DNA of 64,000 bases from Aminivibrio pyruvatiphilus. Its GTDB lineage: Bacteria; Synergistota; Synergistia; Synergistales; Aminobacteriaceae. The notes beneath the pieces were generated by a model. That model had not been told where the DNA came from, searched no databases, and was given only the letters and a program-made list of their open reading frames with translations. Positions 6,379-55,064 of this stretch are shown here, piece after piece. Both the position numbers and the translations under genes were made by a program. Position 1 is the stretch's first letter. Each line of letters begins with the position of its first letter. Where the stretch lies: contig NZ_SORI01000003.1 in assembly GCF_004366815.1 (NCBI RefSeq), forward strand, positions 124,001-188,000, given 5' to 3'.

Positions 6379-7524
6379 ATGACCGGACTTCAATCCGTTT
6401 TCACGTCAGGCAACGAGGCCATCGCAGAAGGGGCGATTGCGGCGGGAGCTTCGTTTTTCGCCGGATACCCCATCACCCCGTCGTCCGAAATCGCCGAGAC
6501 TGCCGCCAGGCGGCTTCCCGAGACCGGGGGCATGTACGTCCAGATGGAGGACGAACTGTCGGGCATGGCCGCCATCGTGGGGGCATCCGTCTCCGGGGCG
6601 AGGGCCTTCACCGCCACCAGCGGCCCGGGCTTCTCCCTGATGCAGGAGAACCTCGGCATGGCCGTCATGGGGGAAATTCCCTGCGTGGTGGTGAACGTCC
6701 AGCGGTCGGGCCCCTCCACCGGCATGGCCACGAAACCCGCCCAGGGGGACGTGATGCAGGCCCGGTGGGGCACCCACGGGGACCACGGCATCATCACCCT
6801 GGCCCCGTCGTCGGTGCAGGACTGCTACGACTTCACGATCCGGGCCTTCTCCCTGGCCGGCCGGTTCCGCACACCGGTGATCCTGCTCGCCGACGCGGCG
6901 GTGGCCAAGCTGAAGGAGAACGTCCGCTTCCGCTCCCCCGCGCCTGAAGAGAGGGCCCCGCGGCCCCTGCCGGACTGCCCCCCCGAAGCCTACCGGCCCT
7001 TCGCCGTGGACCCGGAGGAGAAGGCCATCACGCCCCTTCCCCCCTTCGGGAGCGACTACATCTTCCGCATCACCGGCTCCATGCACGACGAAGCGGGAGG
7101 CCAGGGAGCCTCCCCGGCGAACGCCGACCGGGTGATCCGCCATCTTGCGGGCAAGATCGAAAAGAACCGGGACGTCATCGTCCGGGTCCGGCGCTTCTTC
7201 CTCGACGACGCTGACCTGGCCGTCATCTCCTTCGGATGCTCCGCAAGGTCAGCCCGGGCCGCCGTGAGGGAGGCCAGGAGGCAGGGCATTCCCGCGGGGC
7301 TCCTGGAACTCACCACCCTCTGGCCCTTCCCCGACGACGACGTGCGGGACGTGCTCTCACGGGTCAGGGGCGCCGTGGTGCCGGAGCTGAACCTCGGCCA
7401 GGCCGCGGGGGAAGTCCGGCGGCTCAACGATTTCGGCATTCCCGTGAGGGGGATCTGCCGGGTGGACGGCACCCTCATCCCCCCGGGGGACATCCTCTCC
7501 GCTCTCAGGGAGGCCCGGTCATGA
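6379..7524 (+). CDS. korA: 2-oxoacid:ferredoxin oxidoreductase, alpha subunit
   Basis: This 381-aa subunit of a KorA/VorB-type enzyme carries the hallmark GYPITPSSEI near residue 30 and a TSGPGFSLMQENLG stretch, which together form the pyrimidine-domain part of the thiamine diphosphate site. The enzyme oxidatively decarboxylates a 2-oxoacid to an acyl-CoA and reduces ferredoxin, a central energy step in amino acid fermenters. The ATG at 6379 is chosen because AGGAGG sits six bases before it; the ATG at 6364 has no such site. The stop overlaps the korB start (ATGA). No ferredoxin-like delta subunit gene is adjacent. The substrate (2-oxoglutarate, branched-chain or other) is not decided by sequence. 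Confidence 0.9.
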   Translation: MTGLQSVFTSGNEAIAEGAIAAGASFFAGYPITPSSEIAETAARRLPETGGMYVQMEDELSGMAAIVGASVSGARAFTATSGPGFSLMQENLGMAVMGEIPCVVVNVQRSGPSTGMATKPAQGDVMQARWGTHGDHGIITLAPSSVQDCYDFTIRAFSLAGRFRTPVILLADAAVAKLKENVRFRSPAPEERAPRPLPDCPPEAYRPFAVDPEEKAITPLPPFGSDYIFRITGSMHDEAGGQGASPANADRVIRHLAGKIEKNRDVIVRVRRFFLDDADLAVISFGCSARSARAAVREARRQGIPAGLLELTTLWPFPDDDVRDVLSRVRGAVVPELNLGQAAGEVRRLNDFGIPVRGICRVDGTLIPPGDILSALREARS

Positions 7525-8351
7525 CGGCCCGGAACTTCAGGGAATACCTCGCGGAAAACCGGCTGCCCACCATCTGGTGCCCCGGGTGCGGCAACGGCAT
7601 CGTCCTGAAGGCCATCGCCGGCGCCTTTGCCGACCTCGGGCTGGACCGGAGAAAGACTGCCGCCGTCTCGGGCATCGGCTGCTGGGGATGGGCGGACGAC
7701 TACCTGGCGGTGAACGCCTTCCACGGGACCCACGGGCGGGCTCTCGCCTTCGCCACGGGGATCAAGCTCGCCAACCCGGAACTCACCGTGGTGGTCCTCA
7801 TGGGCGACGGCGACGGCGCCACCATCGGGGGCAACCACCTGATCCACGCGGCCAGGAGGAACGTGGACCTCACGGCGGTGGTGGTGAACAACTACAACTA
7901 CGGCATGACGGGAGGACAGTACTCGGGCACCACCCCCCGGGGAAGCATTACCTCCACCTCGCCCCTGGGCCACGTGGAGGACCCCTTCGATCTCTGCGCC
8001 CTCACGGCCGCTGCGGGTGCTCCCTTCGTCGCCCGGGGATCGGTGTGCGGCGGAGAAAACCTCCGCGCCCTCATCCGCCGGGGCCTTGAGCACAGGGGGT
8101 TCTCCTTCGTGGAGGCGGCGTCCGTCTGCCCAACCCATTTCGGCAGGAGGAACGGCCTGCGGACGGCGGTGGAAGCCTTCTCGTGGCTCCGGGACCATTC
8201 CCTATCCCGGAAAAGGGCAGCCGGGCTGTCCGAAGAGGAACTTCACGGAAAGCAGGTCCTGGGCGTCTTCGCCGACCGGCAGTCCGAGGACTACGGCACC
8301 CGGTACCGGAAAGCGGCTGAAGCCCTCCGGGGAGAGGGGGAGTCGTCATGA
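7521..8351 (+). CDS. korB: 2-oxoacid:ferredoxin oxidoreductase, beta subunit
   Basis: The 276-aa beta subunit binds thiamine diphosphate and a [4Fe-4S] cluster. WCPGCGNG near the N-terminus supplies cluster cysteines, and GDGDGATIGGNH followed about 25 residues later by NYGMTGGQ gives the Mg/ThDP-binding motif. It overlaps korA and korC by four bases each, so the three subunits are translationally coupled. Confidence 0.92.
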   Translation: MTARNFREYLAENRLPTIWCPGCGNGIVLKAIAGAFADLGLDRRKTAAVSGIGCWGWADDYLAVNAFHGTHGRALAFATGIKLANPELTVVVLMGDGDGATIGGNHLIHAARRNVDLTAVVVNNYNYGMTGGQYSGTTPRGSITSTSPLGHVEDPFDLCALTAAAGAPFVARGSVCGGENLRALIRRGLEHRGFSFVEAASVCPTHFGRRNGLRTAVEAFSWLRDHSLSRKRAAGLSEEELHGKQVLGVFADRQSEDYGTRYRKAAEALRGEGESS

Positions 8352-34295: not shown

Positions 34296-35253
34296 AGAAA
34301 TAATACTCGAAGGGGCTCCCCGAGAGTGGCCTGGACTGGATGTGGGTCAGGTTCAGGCTGTTTTCGTAGAGGGGCTCCAGGGCGTAGAACAATCGTCCCG
34401 GCTTGTGCTCCACGTTGAACAGGAACGAGGTCTTGTTCCGCTCCCCCCTCCGGGGCGTACCCCGCCCCACCACCCAGAAACGGGTCCTGTTGCTTCCCCG
34501 GTCCTGGATTTTTTCAGCGAGGATATTGAGTCCGCACCGCTCCGCTGCAAGGGCGCTGCAGACGGCTGCCCGCTCGGGCCGTCCGGCGCATGCCGCCGCA
34601 GCCGCACTCGTGCTGGCCACGGGCACCTGCTCCACCCGGGGCAGGTTCGACCGGAGCCATTCCCTGCACTGGCCCAGGGCCTGGGGGTGGGAAAGAACCT
34701 CCCGGATGTCCTCCCGGGCTGTCCCCTCCGAAGCGAGGACGTGGTCAACCTTAATAGAAACTTCATTATGTATCACTATATCCTTCGCCGCCGAAGCAAA
34801 GGCGTCCATGGTAGGGAGAACCGTTCCCTCCAGCGAGTTTTCCGCCGGAAGAACGCCCCAGTCGGCCAGGCCCTTGTCCACCGCGGAAAAGACGTCGGGG
34901 AAGGAGGCGCACGGCACGGTATCCACTGTCCCGCCGAAGGCCGCGAACACTCCCTCGTGGGAGAAAGACCCCTCCGGCCCGAGGAAGGCCGCCTTCGGAC
35001 GGTGCTGCACTCCCCGGCACAGGGAGATTAATTCCCGGTAAATTCTGGTCACCGCCTCCGGGTCCAGGTCGGGGCACGCGAGGAGCACCCTCTCGATAAC
35101 CTGGTTTTCCCTGACGGGATCGTACACGGGAGCGCCCCCCTTGGCCCTGCCGATCTCCCTGGCGGTCTCCGCCCTCTCGGCGATGAGCCCGGCGATCTGC
35201 CTGTCCAGAGTGTCGATCTTCTCCCGGAAATGCTGCAGCTTCTCCTTGTCCAT
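34186..35253 (-). CDS. pheA: Bifunctional chorismate mutase / prephenate dehydratase
   Basis: The 355-aa fusion has an AroQ chorismate mutase (residues 1-85, with REKIDTLDRQI and REIGRAKGG), a prephenate dehydratase domain (AFLGPEGSFSHEG, and the catalytic TRF in NRTRFWVVG) and a C-terminal ACT domain with IQSRPL and FFIDVEG that binds Phe for feedback. It makes phenylpyruvate from chorismate. The gene is convergent with aroK and their ends overlap by 110 bases. GGAGGGAG lies seven bases before the ATG. No leader attenuator was seen before it. Confidence 0.95.
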   Translation of the reverse strand: MDKEKLQHFREKIDTLDRQIAGLIAERAETAREIGRAKGGAPVYDPVRENQVIERVLLACPDLDPEAVTRIYRELISLCRGVQHRPKAAFLGPEGSFSHEGVFAAFGGTVDTVPCASFPDVFSAVDKGLADWGVLPAENSLEGTVLPTMDAFASAAKDIVIHNEVSIKVDHVLASEGTAREDIREVLSHPQALGQCREWLRSNLPRVEQVPVASTSAAAAACAGRPERAAVCSALAAERCGLNILAEKIQDRGSNRTRFWVVGRGTPRRGERNKTSFLFNVEHKPGRLFYALEPLYENSLNLTHIQSRPLSGSPFEYYFFIDVEGFLEDEPVRKALDTMRERTAFLRLLGSYPCR

Positions 35254-35307
35254 GGGAACTCCCTCCAGCCCTTATATTTTTCGAATTTTCTTTTATTTTC
35301 CGGTCTC

Positions 35308-35336
35308 TTGACAGCCCGGAGAAACCCCTGTAGGAT
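35308..35336 (+). promoter_or_regulatory. Sigma-70 promoter of the ilv attenuator
   Basis: TTGACA (35308-35313), 17-base spacer, TAGGAT (35331-35336). It starts inside the region upstream of pheA on the other strand. Confidence 0.75.
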
Positions 35337-35428
35337 TACCCACAATTTCCGGAGGCTCACCCATTAATTTAAGCACAGCGTCCGGAAACATGGTACCACA
35401 CAACGAAGAAGCGAAGGAGGGAGTTCCG

Positions 35429-35536
35429 GTGAAGAAAATGACCCGTACCGTGTGTTCGGCCAGTGCCGTTTCCGTAATTATCGCCGTCATTATTATTCGC
35501 TGCGGGGCCCCTCCCGGAGCGCTTCTCGTCGTGTAG
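35429..35536 (+). CDS. Branched-chain leader peptide of the ilvNCB attenuator
   Basis: A 35-aa ORF starts with GTG 35429, behind GAAGGAGG. It reads VSVIIAVIII in the middle, with three consecutive Ile codons (35489-35497), and ends LLVV. That is a high density of Ile, Val and Leu directly before a branched-chain biosynthesis operon. Function is inferred from position and from the antiterminator behind it. Confidence 0.88.
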   Translation: MKKMTRTVCSASAVSVIIAVIIIRCGAPPGALLVV

Positions 35537-35592
35537 CCGGACGAAAGCACTTCCGAGGGACCCCCGCACACTCAGCGGGGGTCCCTTTTTTT
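35502..35592 (+). promoter_or_regulatory. ilv attenuator: antiterminator and terminator
   Basis: The terminator is GGGACCCCCGC (35557-35567) with GCGGGGGTCCC (35575-35585), a perfect 11-bp stem, then seven T. Bases 35502-35524 in the leader pair in several blocks with 35545-35567: GCGGGG:CCCCGC, CCCTC:GAGGG, GGA:TCC and GCTT:AAGC, which removes the 5' arm. The block begins four bases after the last Ile codon, so stalling at Ile leaves it free. Confidence 0.85.
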
Positions 35593-35627
35593 ATCCCCGC
35601 ATTTTTCACGAAGGAGGAGAGAGGCGC

Positions 35628-36101
35628 ATGGAACGGACCATAGGCGTAGTGACGGAGGAAGGACGAGGGGTTTTTTCCCGCATTTCGGGGCTCATGGAGC
35701 GCAGGGGATTCCAGGTCCGGGGCGTGACCGCCGGGGCGACCCAGCGCCCGGGAATGGCCCGGTACACCCTGGTGATCGGCGGGGATGAACGGCAGGCGGG
35801 CCAGGCCGTGCGCCAGATCCGGAAGATGGTGGAGACCGTGACGGTGGAGGATCTGAGCGCCGGCGGGTGCGTGGAGCGGTGCATGATGCTCCTGAAGTTC
35901 GCTCCGTCGCCGGAGGAGCGGGAGGCCCTTTTCGAGGTCATGAAGGGCTACCCTCATTCGGTGTCGGAGGACCGCGGCTCATCCCTCATCTTCGAGATGA
36001 TGGGCCCCGGCGTCCTGCTGGACGACTGCCTTGAAAACGTGCGGGGCCTCGGCCTCGTGGAATCGGTGAAAAGCGGCCCCCTGGCCCTTGGAACGAACTG
36101 A
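35628..36101 (+). CDS. ilvN: Acetolactate synthase regulatory subunit
   Basis: The 157-aa protein has an N-terminal ACT domain ([20 protein letters not shown] and a following beta strand) and an IlvN-type C-terminal half. It binds valine and modulates the catalytic subunit IlvB. The start at 35628 follows GGAGGAG. It is first in ilvNCB, whereas the catalytic gene usually comes first. It ends 40 bases before ilvC. Confidence 0.88.
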
Positions 36102-36141: not shown

Positions 36142-37152
36142 ATGGCAACAGTACTGTACGACAGGGATGCGAACATGAAGGTTCTCGAGGGGAAAACGGT
36201 GGCCGTGCTCGGGTACGGAAGCCAGGGACACGCCCATGCCCAGAATCTCCGCGACAGCGGAGTCTCCGTGGTGGTGGGGCTTCACGAAGGCAGCAGATCC
36301 CGGGCGGCGGCCGAACGGGACGGCTTTGCGGTCCATTCAGTGGACGACGCCGTGAAAAACGCCGACGTGGTCATGTTCCTCATGCCGGACCATGTCCAGG
36401 GCACCGTCTACCGCACGTCGGTGGCCCCGAACCTGAAGAAGGGCGCAGCCCTGGCCTTCGCTCACGGCTTCTCCGTCCACTTCAGCCAGGTGGAACCCCC
36501 GAAGGACAACGACGTCTTCATGGTGGCCCCCAAGGGTCCCGGCCATCTCGTCCGGCGCATGTACACCGACGGTCGGGGCGTTCCCTGCCTTCTCGCCGTG
36601 GAACAGGACGCTTCAGGACACGCCCGGGAACTGGGACTGGCCTACGCCTGCGCCCTCGGCGGCGGCAGGGCCGGTGTTCTCTGCACCACCTTCGCCGAGG
36701 AGACGGAGACCGACCTTTTCGGCGAACAGGCCGTGCTGTGCGGTGGCATTACCGAACTCATCAAGGCGGGGTTCGACACCCTCGTGGAGGCCGGATACCA
36801 GCCCGAAATCGCCTATTTTGAATGCCTCAACGAAATGAAGCTCATCGTGGACCTCATGTACGAGGGCGGCATGGGCTGGATGCGCTACTCCGTCAGCGAC
36901 ACCGCCAAGTACGGCGACCTCACCGCCGGCAAAAAGGTCATCGACGGCAGGGTCAGGGAGACCATGAAGACTCTCCTTGCGGACGTAAAGGACGGCTCCT
37001 TCGCCAAGGACTGGATGCTCGAGAACCAGTGCGGCCGGCCCCGGATGAAAAAGTGGATGCAGCAGGAGAAGAGCCACCCCATCGAGGCGGTGGGCAAGGA
37101 ACTTCGGGCCATGATGCCCTGGATGGACGCCAAGTCGGCCCCCGACGCCTGA
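36142..37152 (+). CDS. ilvC: Ketol-acid reductoisomerase, class I
   Basis: The 336-aa enzyme converts acetolactate to dihydroxy-isovalerate with NADPH. It shows the Rossmann motif [30 protein letters not shown] and the metal-binding [16 protein letters not shown]. The ATG at 36142 is used because AAGGAGCTG lies nine bases upstream; an ATG 54 bases earlier has no such site. Confidence 0.96.
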
Positions 37153-37186: not shown

Positions 37187-38860
37187 ATGAAGATGACGGG
37201 AGCCAGGATGGTGGTGGAAGCCCTTGCGATCGAGGGAGTGAAGTGCGTGTACGGCATACCGGGAGGGTCGGTCATCCCCCTCTACGACGCCCTTTACGAT
37301 GCCCCCTTCGCCCACATCCTCATGCGGCACGAACAGGCGGCGGCCCACGCCGCGGACGGGTACGCCCGCGCCTCGGGAAAGCCGGGGGTGTGCATCTGCA
37401 CCTCCGGCCCGGGGTTCACCAACATCCTCACCGGACTGGCGACCGCCTTCATGGATTCCGTTCCCCTCGTGGCAATTTCCGGACAGGTGGCCACCCATCT
37501 CATCGGCACCGACGCCTTCCAGGAGTCGGACACCTTCGGGAGCAGCCTGCCGGCAGTGAAGCACAGCTTCCTCGTCCGATCCGTTGAGGAGCTCCCGGCG
37601 GCGCTGAAGGGGGCCTTCGAGATCGCCGTCTCGGGCCGCCCCGGCCCCGTGCTCGTGGATCTGCCCGTGGACATCCAGAAGGCCCAGGGCGAGTTCGTCT
37701 ACCCTGAACATGCCCTTTTCGGCGAAGACCGTCTTAAGATGCAGACCGATCTGTCCAGGGCGGACGAGGCAGCCTCCCTCCTCAGAAACGCAGAGCGGCC
37801 GGTGATCCTCGCGGGGGGCGGCATCCTCTCCTCCGGGGCTTCCGGCTTCCTCCTCCGCCTGGCGGAGAAATGCGCCATTCCCGTGGCTACCACCCTCATG
37901 GGGAAAGGGGCCTTCCCCGAGGACCATCCCCTCTCCCTGGGCATGGCGGGCATGCACGGCACCCCCTGGGCCAACCTCGCCCTTTCGGAGGCGGACGTCC
38001 TCTTCGCGGTGGGCACCCGGTTCAGCGACCGCACCACCGGCAGGCTCGACTGCTTCGTCAAAGACGCCGCCGTCATCCACGGCGACATCGACGAGGCGGA
38101 GTTCGACAAGATCGTCCCGTGCCGGGTGCACCTCCTCGGCGACGCAAAGGCCATCCTCGGCACGGTCACGGAAGAGCTCGGGGAATGCCGCCGGGACGAG
38201 TGGGCGGCCGCGGTGGAACGGTGGAAGGAGGAATACCCTCTCTCCGACCCCGGTTCCGCGGACTTCATTCCCTCATCGGTCCTGGAGGCCGTCCGCAGGT
38301 CGGCGAAGGACCGGTGGCCCGTGGTGGCCGACGTGGGCCAGAACCAGATGTGGACCGCCCTGTTCTATAAAACGAACGAACCGGGAACCTTCCTCACCTC
38401 CGGGGGCCTCGGCACCATGGGATACGCCCTCCCGGCGGCCATGGGCGCCTCCCTGGCCAGAAACCGCACCCCCGTGCTCTGCTTCGCCGGAGACGGCGGA
38501 TTCCTGATGAACTGCCAGGAGCTCGAAACCTGCGCCCGGTACGGCATCCCCGTGAAGATCTTCGTCCTGAACAACGGGGCCCTCGGCATGGTCCGCCAGT
38601 GGCAGGAACTCTTCTGGAACGAACGGTACTCCGGCACCACGCCTCTTTCCCCCTGCCGGTTCGCCGCCCTGGCGGAAGCCCTGGGCGTGCCGGGGCACAC
38701 CTGCACGTCCATGGTCGAACTGGAAGGCCTGCTTCCGGACATGCTCGCAGCGCCCGGACCGGCCCTGGTTGACTGCCGCATCCCCAGGGAAGAGCTCATC
38801 CTCCCCATGGTCCCCGCGGGGGCGGCCCTGAAAGATTTTATCTACAAGGTGAAGGTGTAG
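37187..38860 (+). CDS. ilvB: Acetolactate synthase catalytic subunit
   Basis: The 557-aa ThDP enzyme condenses two pyruvates (or pyruvate plus 2-oxobutyrate). It has YGIPGGSVIPLYDAL, RHEQAAAHAADGYARASG with the catalytic glutamate, the FAD-binding middle domain, and the ThDP motif GDGGFLMNCQEL followed by NNGALGMVRQWQ. It is 35 bases after ilvC, and completes ilvN-ilvC-ilvB; ilvD, ilvE and leu genes are not in the window. It ends 14 bases before the stop of the convergent galM. Confidence 0.95.
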   Translation: MKMTGARMVVEALAIEGVKCVYGIPGGSVIPLYDALYDAPFAHILMRHEQAAAHAADGYARASGKPGVCICTSGPGFTNILTGLATAFMDSVPLVAISGQVATHLIGTDAFQESDTFGSSLPAVKHSFLVRSVEELPAALKGAFEIAVSGRPGPVLVDLPVDIQKAQGEFVYPEHALFGEDRLKMQTDLSRADEAASLLRNAERPVILAGGGILSSGASGFLLRLAEKCAIPVATTLMGKGAFPEDHPLSLGMAGMHGTPWANLALSEADVLFAVGTRFSDRTTGRLDCFVKDAAVIHGDIDEAEFDKIVPCRVHLLGDAKAILGTVTEELGECRRDEWAAAVERWKEEYPLSDPGSADFIPSSVLEAVRRSAKDRWPVVADVGQNQMWTALFYKTNEPGTFLTSGGLGTMGYALPAAMGASLARNRTPVLCFAGDGGFLMNCQELETCARYGIPVKIFVLNNGALGMVRQWQELFWNERYSGTTPLSPCRFAALAEALGVPGHTCTSMVELEGLLPDMLAAPGPALVDCRIPREELILPMVPAGAALKDFIYKVKV

Positions 38861-50160: not shown

Positions 50161-50247
50161 ATGACATCGCACTTTAACGCCGCAGTGTTCAACGCTCTTT
50201 TCGTCATAATGATGCGCAGCGACCCTCCTGGAGCCGCAGGCGCCTGA
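50161..50247 (+). CDS. Met-rich leader peptide of an attenuator before an unknown gene
   Basis: A 28-aa ORF, ATG 50161 behind AGGGGGA. Its control codons are FVIMM (ATA ATG ATG at 50206-50214), immediately before RSDPPGAAGA and the stop. The end and the nucleotides behind it closely resemble the aspartokinase leader at 54891. Stalling at Met (perhaps Ile) is the only reading consistent with this layout; the amino acid sensed is inferred. Confidence 0.75.
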   Translation: MTSHFNAAVFNALFVIMMRSDPPGAAGA

Positions 50248-50309
50248 TTTTGCGTGCCTTTGAGCTTCAGCCGGGGGGCTTCGGAACATCGAAGGTCCCC
50301 GGCTTTTTT
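50221..50309 (+). promoter_or_regulatory. Met attenuator: antiterminator and terminator
   Basis: GACCCTCCTGGAG (50221-50233) pairs with CTTCAGCCGGGGGG..C (50265-50279), 12 pairs, one mismatch and a two-base bulge, removing the 5' arm of the terminator. The terminator is AGCCGGGG..CTTCG (50269-50283) with CGAAGG..CCCCGGCT (50290-50304), then six T. The antiterminator lies 12 bases after the first Met codon. Confidence 0.8.
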
Positions 50310-50341
50310 ATGACTGAAAAAACGACAGGGAGGGATTTTCC

Positions 50342-51598
50342 ATGCAGAATTTCGGATTCCAGATCGGCGAAGATACCGTCCGGCAGCTGAATGCCTTTCT
50401 TTCCGACCCGGGGAACGGGGCAATCGGCGACCTGAAAAGAGTCGTGGCCAAATACGGCTCGGTGAGCGAAATCAACGAACGGGCCCGGGAATCGGGAAAG
50501 GTGGAAAGCCTGGTCAAAAAGCTGGAGCGGATGAACTCGCCCTACGTGAAGGACCTCGAATGGCTCGCGGAGATCCGTGACGAGGGGAAGCTGGTCTCCC
50601 TGTCGGACTACCGGGCACGGGTCAATCCCGGCCGGCCTTCGTGGGACTACGACCATTCCAGGGCGGCGACCCTGGAGATCAGCGCCATGCAGTATTTCCC
50701 GTGGCTTCTCGCCGAGGTGCGGCAGTGCGTGGAAAAGGGGGAGGTGCTCCCCGGCAGGTTCATCCGGGTACGGAAGATGAAGGAGCAGGAAGCGGACGGA
50801 GGCGACCTTCCCGCCGTGCGTGCCGCCACGAAAATTCTTGGCGCCTCCTGCGTGGAAACCCTGGATACGAAGGGCGTGGACGGGTCGAACATCCACCTCG
50901 GCGGGCCCGAGACCATCACAGGCTACTTCGGCGGCATCGGCCAGCCCAACAGCCATCCTCTCCGGTGGGTGGAAGAAGCCCTGTACTACTACGTGAACTA
51001 CGGCGTGGACGAGGTGCTCAACATCAACCCCGGAACGGTGTTCCTGGGCTACCTGCTCTACCGCATGGGCGTGGACATCCGGTTCAAGATCTCCGTCTTC
51101 ATGGGGAACGACAACCCCTACGCCGTGCTCTGGACCCTGCTGGCAGCCCGGATGTTCGCCCGGGAGGACGGAAGCACCCCCCTGGCGGGCTTCAACCTGT
51201 CCAACTCCATCGACGACGCCCATCTGGCGAAATCCGCGGAGATCCGCAGATCCCTCGGCCTGGAGGACCAGGTGCGGATCGAACACCATATTACGGAGAC
51301 CTGGAAGAGCATCGTCCGCCAACCCTACAACCGCCGTGACGGACTTCTGGAGCTGGTGAAGACGGTACCCAACATTTCGGCGAAACACGAGGGAGGCAAC
51401 CCGGAGGACGAGCAGACCCTCGCCCATCCGTCGGATATCCTCGACTACTTCCGGGAGAAGAAGGAGATCGAGTCGTCCGGGGAGATGGACGCCCTGACCC
51501 GGAATTACCTGCTGAAGCACAAGGCGGTGAACGACACGGCGGCCGCCCTGACGAAGGCGGGACTGTCCTTCGTGGCGGCGGGAGCCCACAGACTCTAG
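50342..51598 (+). CDS. Unrecognised 418-aa protein under a Met-type attenuator
   Basis: I do not recognise this family. The 418-aa soluble protein has no signal peptide or membrane segment. Long helices at the N-terminus (about 1-100) are followed by a mixed alpha/beta region with SNIHLGGPETITGYFGG, GQPNSHPLRWVEEALYYYV, INPGTVFLG and FMGNDNPYAVLWTLLAARMF, which looks like a barrel of repeated beta-alpha units. It carries only one or two cysteines. It is the only gene between a Met-type attenuator and a terminator, so the layout links it to methionine or a neighbouring pathway. The start at 50342 follows AGGGAGGG. A terminator lies 18 bases behind the stop. Confidence 0.7.
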   Translation: MQNFGFQIGEDTVRQLNAFLSDPGNGAIGDLKRVVAKYGSVSEINERARESGKVESLVKKLERMNSPYVKDLEWLAEIRDEGKLVSLSDYRARVNPGRPSWDYDHSRAATLEISAMQYFPWLLAEVRQCVEKGEVLPGRFIRVRKMKEQEADGGDLPAVRAATKILGASCVETLDTKGVDGSNIHLGGPETITGYFGGIGQPNSHPLRWVEEALYYYVNYGVDEVLNINPGTVFLGYLLYRMGVDIRFKISVFMGNDNPYAVLWTLLAARMFAREDGSTPLAGFNLSNSIDDAHLAKSAEIRRSLGLEDQVRIEHHITETWKSIVRQPYNRRDGLLELVKTVPNISAKHEGGNPEDEQTLAHPSDILDYFREKKEIESSGEMDALTRNYLLKHKAVNDTAAALTKAGLSFVAAGAHRL

Positions 51599-54890: not shown

Positions 54891-54980
54891 GTGAGCATGA
54901 AACCAGCAGTTCCGCATCATCCCGCAGCCTGTGCCATGACGATGACTAGCGGCGACCCTCCTGGAGAGGTCGGCGCCTGA
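54891..54980 (+). CDS. Met/Thr leader peptide of the ak-hom attenuator
   Basis: A 29-aa ORF with GTG 54891 (AAGGAG eight bases upstream). Control codons are ATG ACG ATG ACT (Met-Thr-Met-Thr, 54936-54947), then SGDPPGEVGA and the stop. Both amino acids are end products of the pathway encoded downstream. The downstream sequence is shared with the leader at 50161. Confidence 0.85.
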   Translation: MSMKPAVPHHPAACAMTMTSGDPPGEVGA

Positions 54981-55041
54981 TCCGTCGTGCACCGACAGCT
55001 TCAGCCGGGGGTCTTCGTACAGAAGGCCCCCGGCTTTTTTT
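54954..55041 (+). promoter_or_regulatory. ak-hom attenuator: antiterminator and terminator
   Basis: GACCCTCCTGGAG (54954-54966) pairs with CTTCAG..GGGGGTC (54999-55013): 13 pairs around a bulged CC. This takes away the terminator 5' arm. The terminator is AGCCGGGGGTCTTC (55003-55016) with GAAGGCCCCCGGCT (55022-55035), then T residues to 55041. The AGCTTCAGCCGGGGG words (54997-55011) are identical to 50263-50277. Confidence 0.85.
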
Positions 55042-55064
55042 ATTCTGCGAAAGGGGGAAAGCCC

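Follow-up and report, generated by a model that had tools for sequence, protein, structure and literature searches.

A predicted ribosome-mediated attenuator upstream of ilvNCB in Aminivibrio pyruvatiphilus very probably belongs to a homologous attenuator family spread through the Synergistota

In a 64,000-nucleotide stretch of the Aminivibrio pyruvatiphilus genome (contig NZ_SORI01000003.1, positions 124,001 to 188,000; hereafter the window, numbered from its first letter), the ilvN-ilvC-ilvB genes are preceded by an element that is very probably a ribosome-mediated transcription attenuator, and a member of a homologous attenuator family spread through the Synergistota. The anatomy of the element, the mutual exclusion of its folds, the coevolution of its strands, the distribution of the family and the match between codon run and downstream gene were all obtained by computation. 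Such a mechanism belongs to a classical type, and the novelty lies in a shared, re-codable body across a phylum.

A pattern scan upstream of ilvN identified one sigma-70-like promoter (TTGACA-17-TAGGAT, 35308-35336; 0.3 expected in shuffles), and by eye a TTGACA-type site is present at the equivalent place in relatives. The promoter is followed by a strong Shine-Dalgarno sequence, AAGGAGG (35414-35420), and by a predicted leader peptide ORF of 35 codons (35429-35536; GTG start at 35429, TAG stop) that translates as VKKMTRTVCSASAVSVIIAVIIIRCGAPPGALLVV and stop. A purine-rich Shine-Dalgarno sequence precedes most leaders of the family. The control codons V S V I I A V I I I (35468-35497) occupy the position at which other members carry their own cognate codons. 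An intrinsic terminator, assigned from folding and covariation, covers 35555-35592 with a 13-pair stem (35555-35567 with 35575-35587) and a T run. It is followed by ilvN (acetolactate synthase small subunit, 35628-36101), ilvC (ketol-acid reductoisomerase, 36142-37152) and ilvB (acetolactate synthase large subunit, 37187-38860), all identified by NCBIfam and, like every element of the leader, located on the forward strand. The initial annotation had placed a branched-chain attenuator before these three genes, and we found all sequence-level features of a leader-peptide attenuator there: a leader ORF with ribosome-binding site, a cognate codon run, an intrinsic terminator and an antiterminator that excludes it.

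The gene upstream of the ilv leader is a divergent chorismate mutase/prephenate dehydratase (pheA). The 12-mer GGAGGGAGTTCC occurs at 35255-35266 on the reverse strand and at 35416-35427 on the forward strand, an inverted repeat that spans the intergenic region, and forms the ribosome-binding region of both the divergent prephenate dehydratase gene and the ilv leader. A block reading ATGGTACCACAC (ATGGTATCACAC in some relatives) lies between promoter and leader at about 35389-35400 and is kept in the genus and nearby genera.

The fold of the whole ilv leader is better than that of 200 out of 200 dinucleotide shuffles (z -3.54). Folding of the two states separately yielded each of them: an antiterminator of 24 pairs at -36.4 kcal/mol in the segment 35498-35567 (equalled by 10 of 1000 dinucleotide shuffles), and the 13-pair terminator at 35555-35587, followed by the T run, at -28.6 kcal/mol. 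The 5' strand of the antiterminator (35502-35530, from folding and coevolution) lies within the leader ORF, and its 3' strand (35540-35567, from folding) covers the entire 5' arm of the terminator, 35555-35567, making the two structures mutually exclusive. This agrees with the initial annotation, which had the antiterminator take in nearly all of that arm. Its four pairing blocks were reproduced exactly (35502-35507 with 35562-35567, 35509-35513 with 35555-35559, 35516-35519 with 35550-35553 and 35521-35524 with 35545-35548), amounting to 19 pairs for a claimed 18 or so. Two elements are additional to it: a fifth antiterminator block of 5 pairs (35526-35530 with 35540-35544) and a 1:2 (pause/protector) hairpin at 35498-35521, which pairs 35498-35501 with 35518-35521 and 35503-35506 with 35513-35516 and is supported by folding and coevolution. 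Of the Ile, Val and Leu codons originally put forward, the Val/Ile run at 35468-35497 is retained as the sensing part, and the Leu codons at 35522-35527 were rejected as sensors. These Leu codons lie within antiterminator strand 2, as do the last two Val codons, past the start of the hairpin, so that a stall there would favour termination.

To place a ribosome on these folds we assumed, from general knowledge, that about 12 nucleotides are shielded past the stalled codon. A simulated stall on the last Ile codon leaves antiterminator blocks two to five free, with -24.5 kcal/mol before the terminator 3' arm is made, and a simulated ribosome on the stop codon leaves the terminator alone (-29.2). 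For the complete transcript with no ribosome, the terminator state reaches -53.1 versus -38.7 kcal/mol and is favoured in every complete-transcript fold tested. Since equilibrium favours the terminator state, antitermination must be kinetic.

From this layout we infer the start site, translation of the ilv leader, pausing, stalling, termination and an amino-acid response. RNA polymerase would make the 1:2 hairpin, and probably pause, while a ribosome reads the leader. With charged Ile-tRNA (and Val-tRNA) at hand, the ribosome would reach the UAG at 35534 and occupy strand 2, the terminator at 35555-35587 would form and transcription would end near 35590. When Ile- or Val-tRNA is scarce, the ribosome would stall on the Val/Ile codons adjoining strand 1 and open the 1:2 hairpin, leaving strand 2 free; the 24-pair antiterminator would then capture the terminator 5' arm ahead of synthesis of the 3' arm, allowing transcription of ilvNCB. 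In other members the same body with an altered codon run would sense Leu, Met, Thr or aromatic amino acids upstream of the matching genes.

Relatives of IlvN are present in 37 of 59 genomes and in 55 of 81 family genomes. The body [AC]GC[TC]GCGGG (or TTCGCGGGTC) together with a terminator was found at no fewer than 25 of 31 ilvN loci (L001-L031), a lower bound because identical sequences were listed once. By eye, no leader was seen at L035, L036, L039-L041, L044 and L046, which belong to one genus and where ilvN directly follows an ilvB-like reading frame. A scan for the exact body across the whole genome_contigs collection returned 22 stretches, 21 of them in Synergistota records (three named genera were lineage-checked). 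The remaining stretch, in Cyanobium (L062), was dismissed as a chance match, with neither leader nor terminator and an E value of 0.07 against the covariance model R1 described below.

In another of these stretches, from a metagenome-assembled genome of Acetomicrobium hydrogeniformans (L047), the same body carries a different codon run, the leader ending in VSFFFSFFFSCGSPPGALDAI and stop. The best solved relatives of the protein encoded next are cyclohexadienyl dehydratases (E 1e-64 to 6e-57), enzymes of the phenylalanine pathway. Because of this altered run on the same body, we built R1 from 31 bodies, with the control codons excluded and the terminator stem as the only structure given. In the Synergistota R1 matched 149 of 185 genomes at E<=0.1 and, by a hand count, 112 of 185 at E<=1e-5; the matches at E<=1e-5 span 11 out of 12 families, including one from outside the order. 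Among 98 cyanobacterial genomes there were none at E<=1e-5 and 14 at E<=0.1, the best with E 7.1e-4. The ilv member of the window, which belongs to the training set, scores 76.2 bits (E 3.7e-15), and the best match in this control phylum 29.3 bits. We examined the context of 145 R1 matches in 71 genomes. A leader ORF with a Shine-Dalgarno sequence is present at 129 of these and was not found at the other 16; in 124 of the 129 leaders the stop codon falls 10-12 codons past the start of the body. Frame and stop distance are nearly fixed.

The pairing strands of the family coevolve. In alignment A2 (119 matches, giving 105 distinct full-length rows once partial rows, opposite-strand rows and one N-containing row were dropped), antiterminator strand A reaches -32.84 kcal/mol with its cognate strand B versus -25.35 kcal/mol with the strands B of others, a result reached in 0 of 20,000 permutations. 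The same count, 0 of 20,000, was obtained for the two arms of the terminator and again for the strands of the 1:2 hairpin. The negative controls gave 5480 of 20,000 (strand A with the terminator 3' arm) and 1555 of 20,000 (reversed strand A). When pairs were counted in fixed columns, the terminator had 254 double-changed cells versus 53.0 in shuffles and the antiterminator 95 versus 39.7, with only 81% of its cells paired. In 98 of 500 shuffles at least as many antiterminator pairs were double-changed, so covariation of the antiterminator is less clean than that of the terminator, in part because members shift register. A further candidate, pairing of the 45 nucleotides upstream of the body with strand A, was rejected for want of coevolution (17,903 of 20,000); the same stretch with strand B gave a weak signal (140 of 20,000).

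These data bear on a rival explanation, in which 35555-35592 is a plain terminator that keeps upstream transcription from running into ilvN, and the leader ORF arose by chance. Terminators are common, and the predicted leader is known here from sequence alone, which is what such an explanation would have in its favour. However, pheA is divergent, so there is no same-strand pheA transcript to stop, and the Shine-Dalgarno sequence, ORF, Val/Ile run and antiterminator of the ilv leader are conserved through the phylum, with strands that coevolve beyond every permutation. We consider a plain terminator highly improbable.

Whether the matches form one family is a separate question. Bodies are 62% identical between the same gene in different genomes, 47% between different genes in one genome and 50% when both differ, a pattern that fits old paralogues inherited vertically rather than recent swaps. 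With identity across classes at only about 50%, homology between them rests on the shared 5' block, the frame and the architecture, and is least certain for the aromatic group. It could be argued that the ilv attenuator is real and the other matches are look-alikes that evolved independently, GC-rich leaders, terminators and antiterminators forcing the same layout, so that there is no homologous family. The low identity between classes (about 0.47-0.50) speaks for this, as does the GGCCGGG...CCCGGCC stem shared by Synergistota terminators, with matches to the stem alone reaching 25-32 bits. But the 36-nucleotide 5' block outscores its own shuffles (p<=0.01) in 13 of 15 Leu, 18 of 18 Met and 5 of 5 Thr/Lys members, and in only 4 of 8 aromatic ones, scores that are inflated because the matches were pre-selected by R1. 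The lack of cyanobacterial matches at E<=1e-5 and the nearly fixed frame and stop distance also count against independent origins, which we regard as unlikely.

The codon run follows the identity of the downstream gene. Downstream proteins were clustered by BLASTP and representatives of the groups identified; leaving out transporters, microproteins and unknowns, 84 of the 145 matches had an identifiable gene, in 13 groups, 78 of them with a leader and 6 without. The dominant codon class was as expected in 73 of the 78 leaders, and 12 of the 13 gene groups matched, an outcome that 3 of 100,000 label permutations reached. This test is independent of how the matches were selected, because R1 never saw the codon run. 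The exceptions are five leaders, three of them Met/Thr leaders before hom or lysC that were called Met instead of Thr. The classes comprise Ile/Val (ilv), Leu (leuA, leuC), Met (metQ, metN, O-acetylhomoserine sulfhydrylase), Thr/Met (hom, lysC) and Phe/Tyr (cyclohexadienyl dehydratase, paaK). Examples are the leaders of leuA (...SSLCLLL/GCRFPPG), metQ (...FTMMMCG/NGGSPPG), O-acetylhomoserine sulfhydrylase (...AMSMMMCM/DCGSSPG), homoserine dehydrogenase (...NVTTTTTMT/TCVDPPG), aspartokinase (...CAMTM/TSGDPPG), paaK (...CFFEYYYA/SEGP) and panB (...SFDVVVVVDVL/SCRVLPG). The panB member (L134; G041 contig C4, 107906-107999) has Val and Asp codons, which suggests that pantothenate synthesis may be tied to the supply of Val, perhaps also of Asp. 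Members with Phe/Tyr codons (CFFEYYY; L150 and L159 in genomes G007 and G033) precede relatives of phenylacetate-CoA ligase, suggesting that in those species the ligase may serve aromatic amino-acid synthesis from aryl acids.

The leaders also allow one to ask whether the conserved C-terminal peptide (RCGxPPG...) might be a ligand-sensing arrest peptide, to which the codon runs would be secondary. PPG is a slow motif for ribosomes, and almost all members have the block in the same reading frame. Yet PPG occurs in only 40 of 129 leaders, while 33 have PG but not PPG and 56 have neither; the peptides diverge (GCRFPPGTPAA, SSGSPEVAGA, SRGSRPRPIGA) while the pairing is kept, so the constraint looks to be at the level of RNA, and the codon runs track the gene. 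We judge an arrest peptide very unlikely.

Two further members lie in the window, on the forward strand. One has a leader with Met/Thr codons (MSMKPAVPHHPAACAMTMTSGDPPGEVGA and stop, 54891-54980) before an aspartokinase-homoserine dehydrogenase gene and matches R1 at 54945-55043 (44.7 bits, E 1.2e-8). The other has the leader MTSHFNAAVFNALFVIMMRSDPPGAAGA and stop (50161-50247) and matches at 50215-50311 (34.6 bits, E 3.3e-6). It precedes an uncharacterised protein of 418 residues (50342-51598) for which no Pfam, NCBIfam or PDB-sequence relative was found; this putative attenuator has the codon run ...VIMMR, and genes for a sodium:solute symporter and an amidohydrolase come after that of the protein. 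Besides the ilv member, the genome has members before leuA, a MetQ-family gene, the aspartokinase-homoserine dehydrogenase gene, a microprotein gene on contig C28 and the gene of the 418-residue protein. Two weak matches in the same genome (C22:8139 and C6:684) look like plain terminators.

Members with branched-chain codons also precede a short ORF of about 45-80 residues that ends in [FYW]RGPFEG[YFIVL]R and stop. This arrangement occurs at L130 (A. pyruvatiphilus C28, about 7000-7810), L137, L139, L144, L154, L160, L170, L171 and L178, and further at L182, L189, L191, L198, L203, L206, L214, L217 and L245. The C28 copy has the motif twice. That copy has no match in Pfam, and five copies compared with NCBIfam gave nothing meaningful. 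A strict pattern found the microprotein in 7 of 185 genomes, an undercount, since the pattern is too narrow and missed the C28 copy itself. The microprotein is possibly made when Ile, Val or Leu is short.

Leader-peptide attenuators are usually seen as repeated one-off inventions without shared sequence. Their repeated emergence has been posed as a hypothesis in a paper (PMC2965389) according to which such systems were as of 2010 known only in Proteobacteria and Actinobacteria, with a his case from Firmicutes added. A broader account, which we offer tentatively and think rather doubtful as a whole, is that an ancestral Synergistota attenuator duplicated early and was re-coded for Ile/Val, Leu, Met, Thr, Phe/Tyr and pantothenate genes, transporters and the microprotein family, as a functional counterpart of the T-box beside real T-boxes, and that the enterobacterial ilvGMEDA attenuator shares this ancestor, through deep inheritance or transfer. 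A homologous family in which the sensor differs by its codon run alone would provide a natural series relating codon run, hairpin spacing and stop position to amino-acid specificity. It would also allow function prediction for neighbouring uncharacterised genes in a poorly studied phylum and would turn the origin of the textbook ilv attenuator into a testable question.

A search of the open-licence literature brought up no account of an attenuator in the Synergistota that serves ilv genes or several amino acids. Passages of related papers describe actinobacterial ilvB leaders, in which, as here, a branched-chain leader peptide precedes acetolactate synthase genes (PMC1262725, PMC11857589, PMC10272879; a likeness at the level of description); control of his genes by HisR in Synergistes, a different system (PMC9413887); and ilvB/ilvD motifs from Leptospira and Veillonella only (PMC8632094). 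The closest likeness is to the enterobacterial ilvGMEDA attenuator (ilvL of E. coli MG1655, NC_000913.3). Like the ilv leader, ilvL has a run of Val/Ile codons with TGCGGGGC only a few codons further on, the two leaders reading ...VVVIIIPPCGAALGRGKA versus ...VIIAVIIIRCGAPPGALLVV. The dot-bracket of the 1:2 hairpin is identical (3 pairs, 1x1, 4 pairs, 6-nucleotide loop), antiterminator and terminator share a common GACCCCCGCAC arm, and the folds of ilvL rank alike in energy (-38.5 for the complete one, -27.7 for that reaching to the 5' arm). Among seven amino-acid attenuators of E. coli, ilvL is the sole one to match R1 across the body and in register, weakly, at 16.6 bits (E 0.015 over 78 kb including a 50-kb control); thrL, leuL, trpL, hisL, ivbL and pheL gave no body match, and pheL matched in its terminator part only (9.8 bits). 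In contrast, the downstream genes and their order differ, and the middle helix in E. coli is unrelated. Taken together the likeness is a hint, suggestive only, of common descent.

The leader-peptide attenuators of Proteobacteria (thr, leu, his, trp, phe, ilvBN) belong to the same mechanism class as the ilv leader, whereas in the Synergistota one body serves several amino acids. In this respect the family resembles the T-box, which likewise combines one conserved RNA body and a swapped specifier with many amino-acid genes. A T-box or other riboswitch could in principle control ilvNCB itself, given that the phylum does have T-boxes (in 133 of 185 genomes at E<=1e-3 and in 47 above the family cut-off). 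However, no Rfam family, the T-box model (RF00230) included, reached its cut-off in the 64-kb window, there was no T-box among the weak matches to 35250-35640, and we give this explanation next to no weight. In a T-box, tRNA is read directly at a single specifier codon, unlike in the Synergistota attenuator family, whose reader would be a ribosome on a translated codon run. The two systems coexist, both being present in the same genomes.
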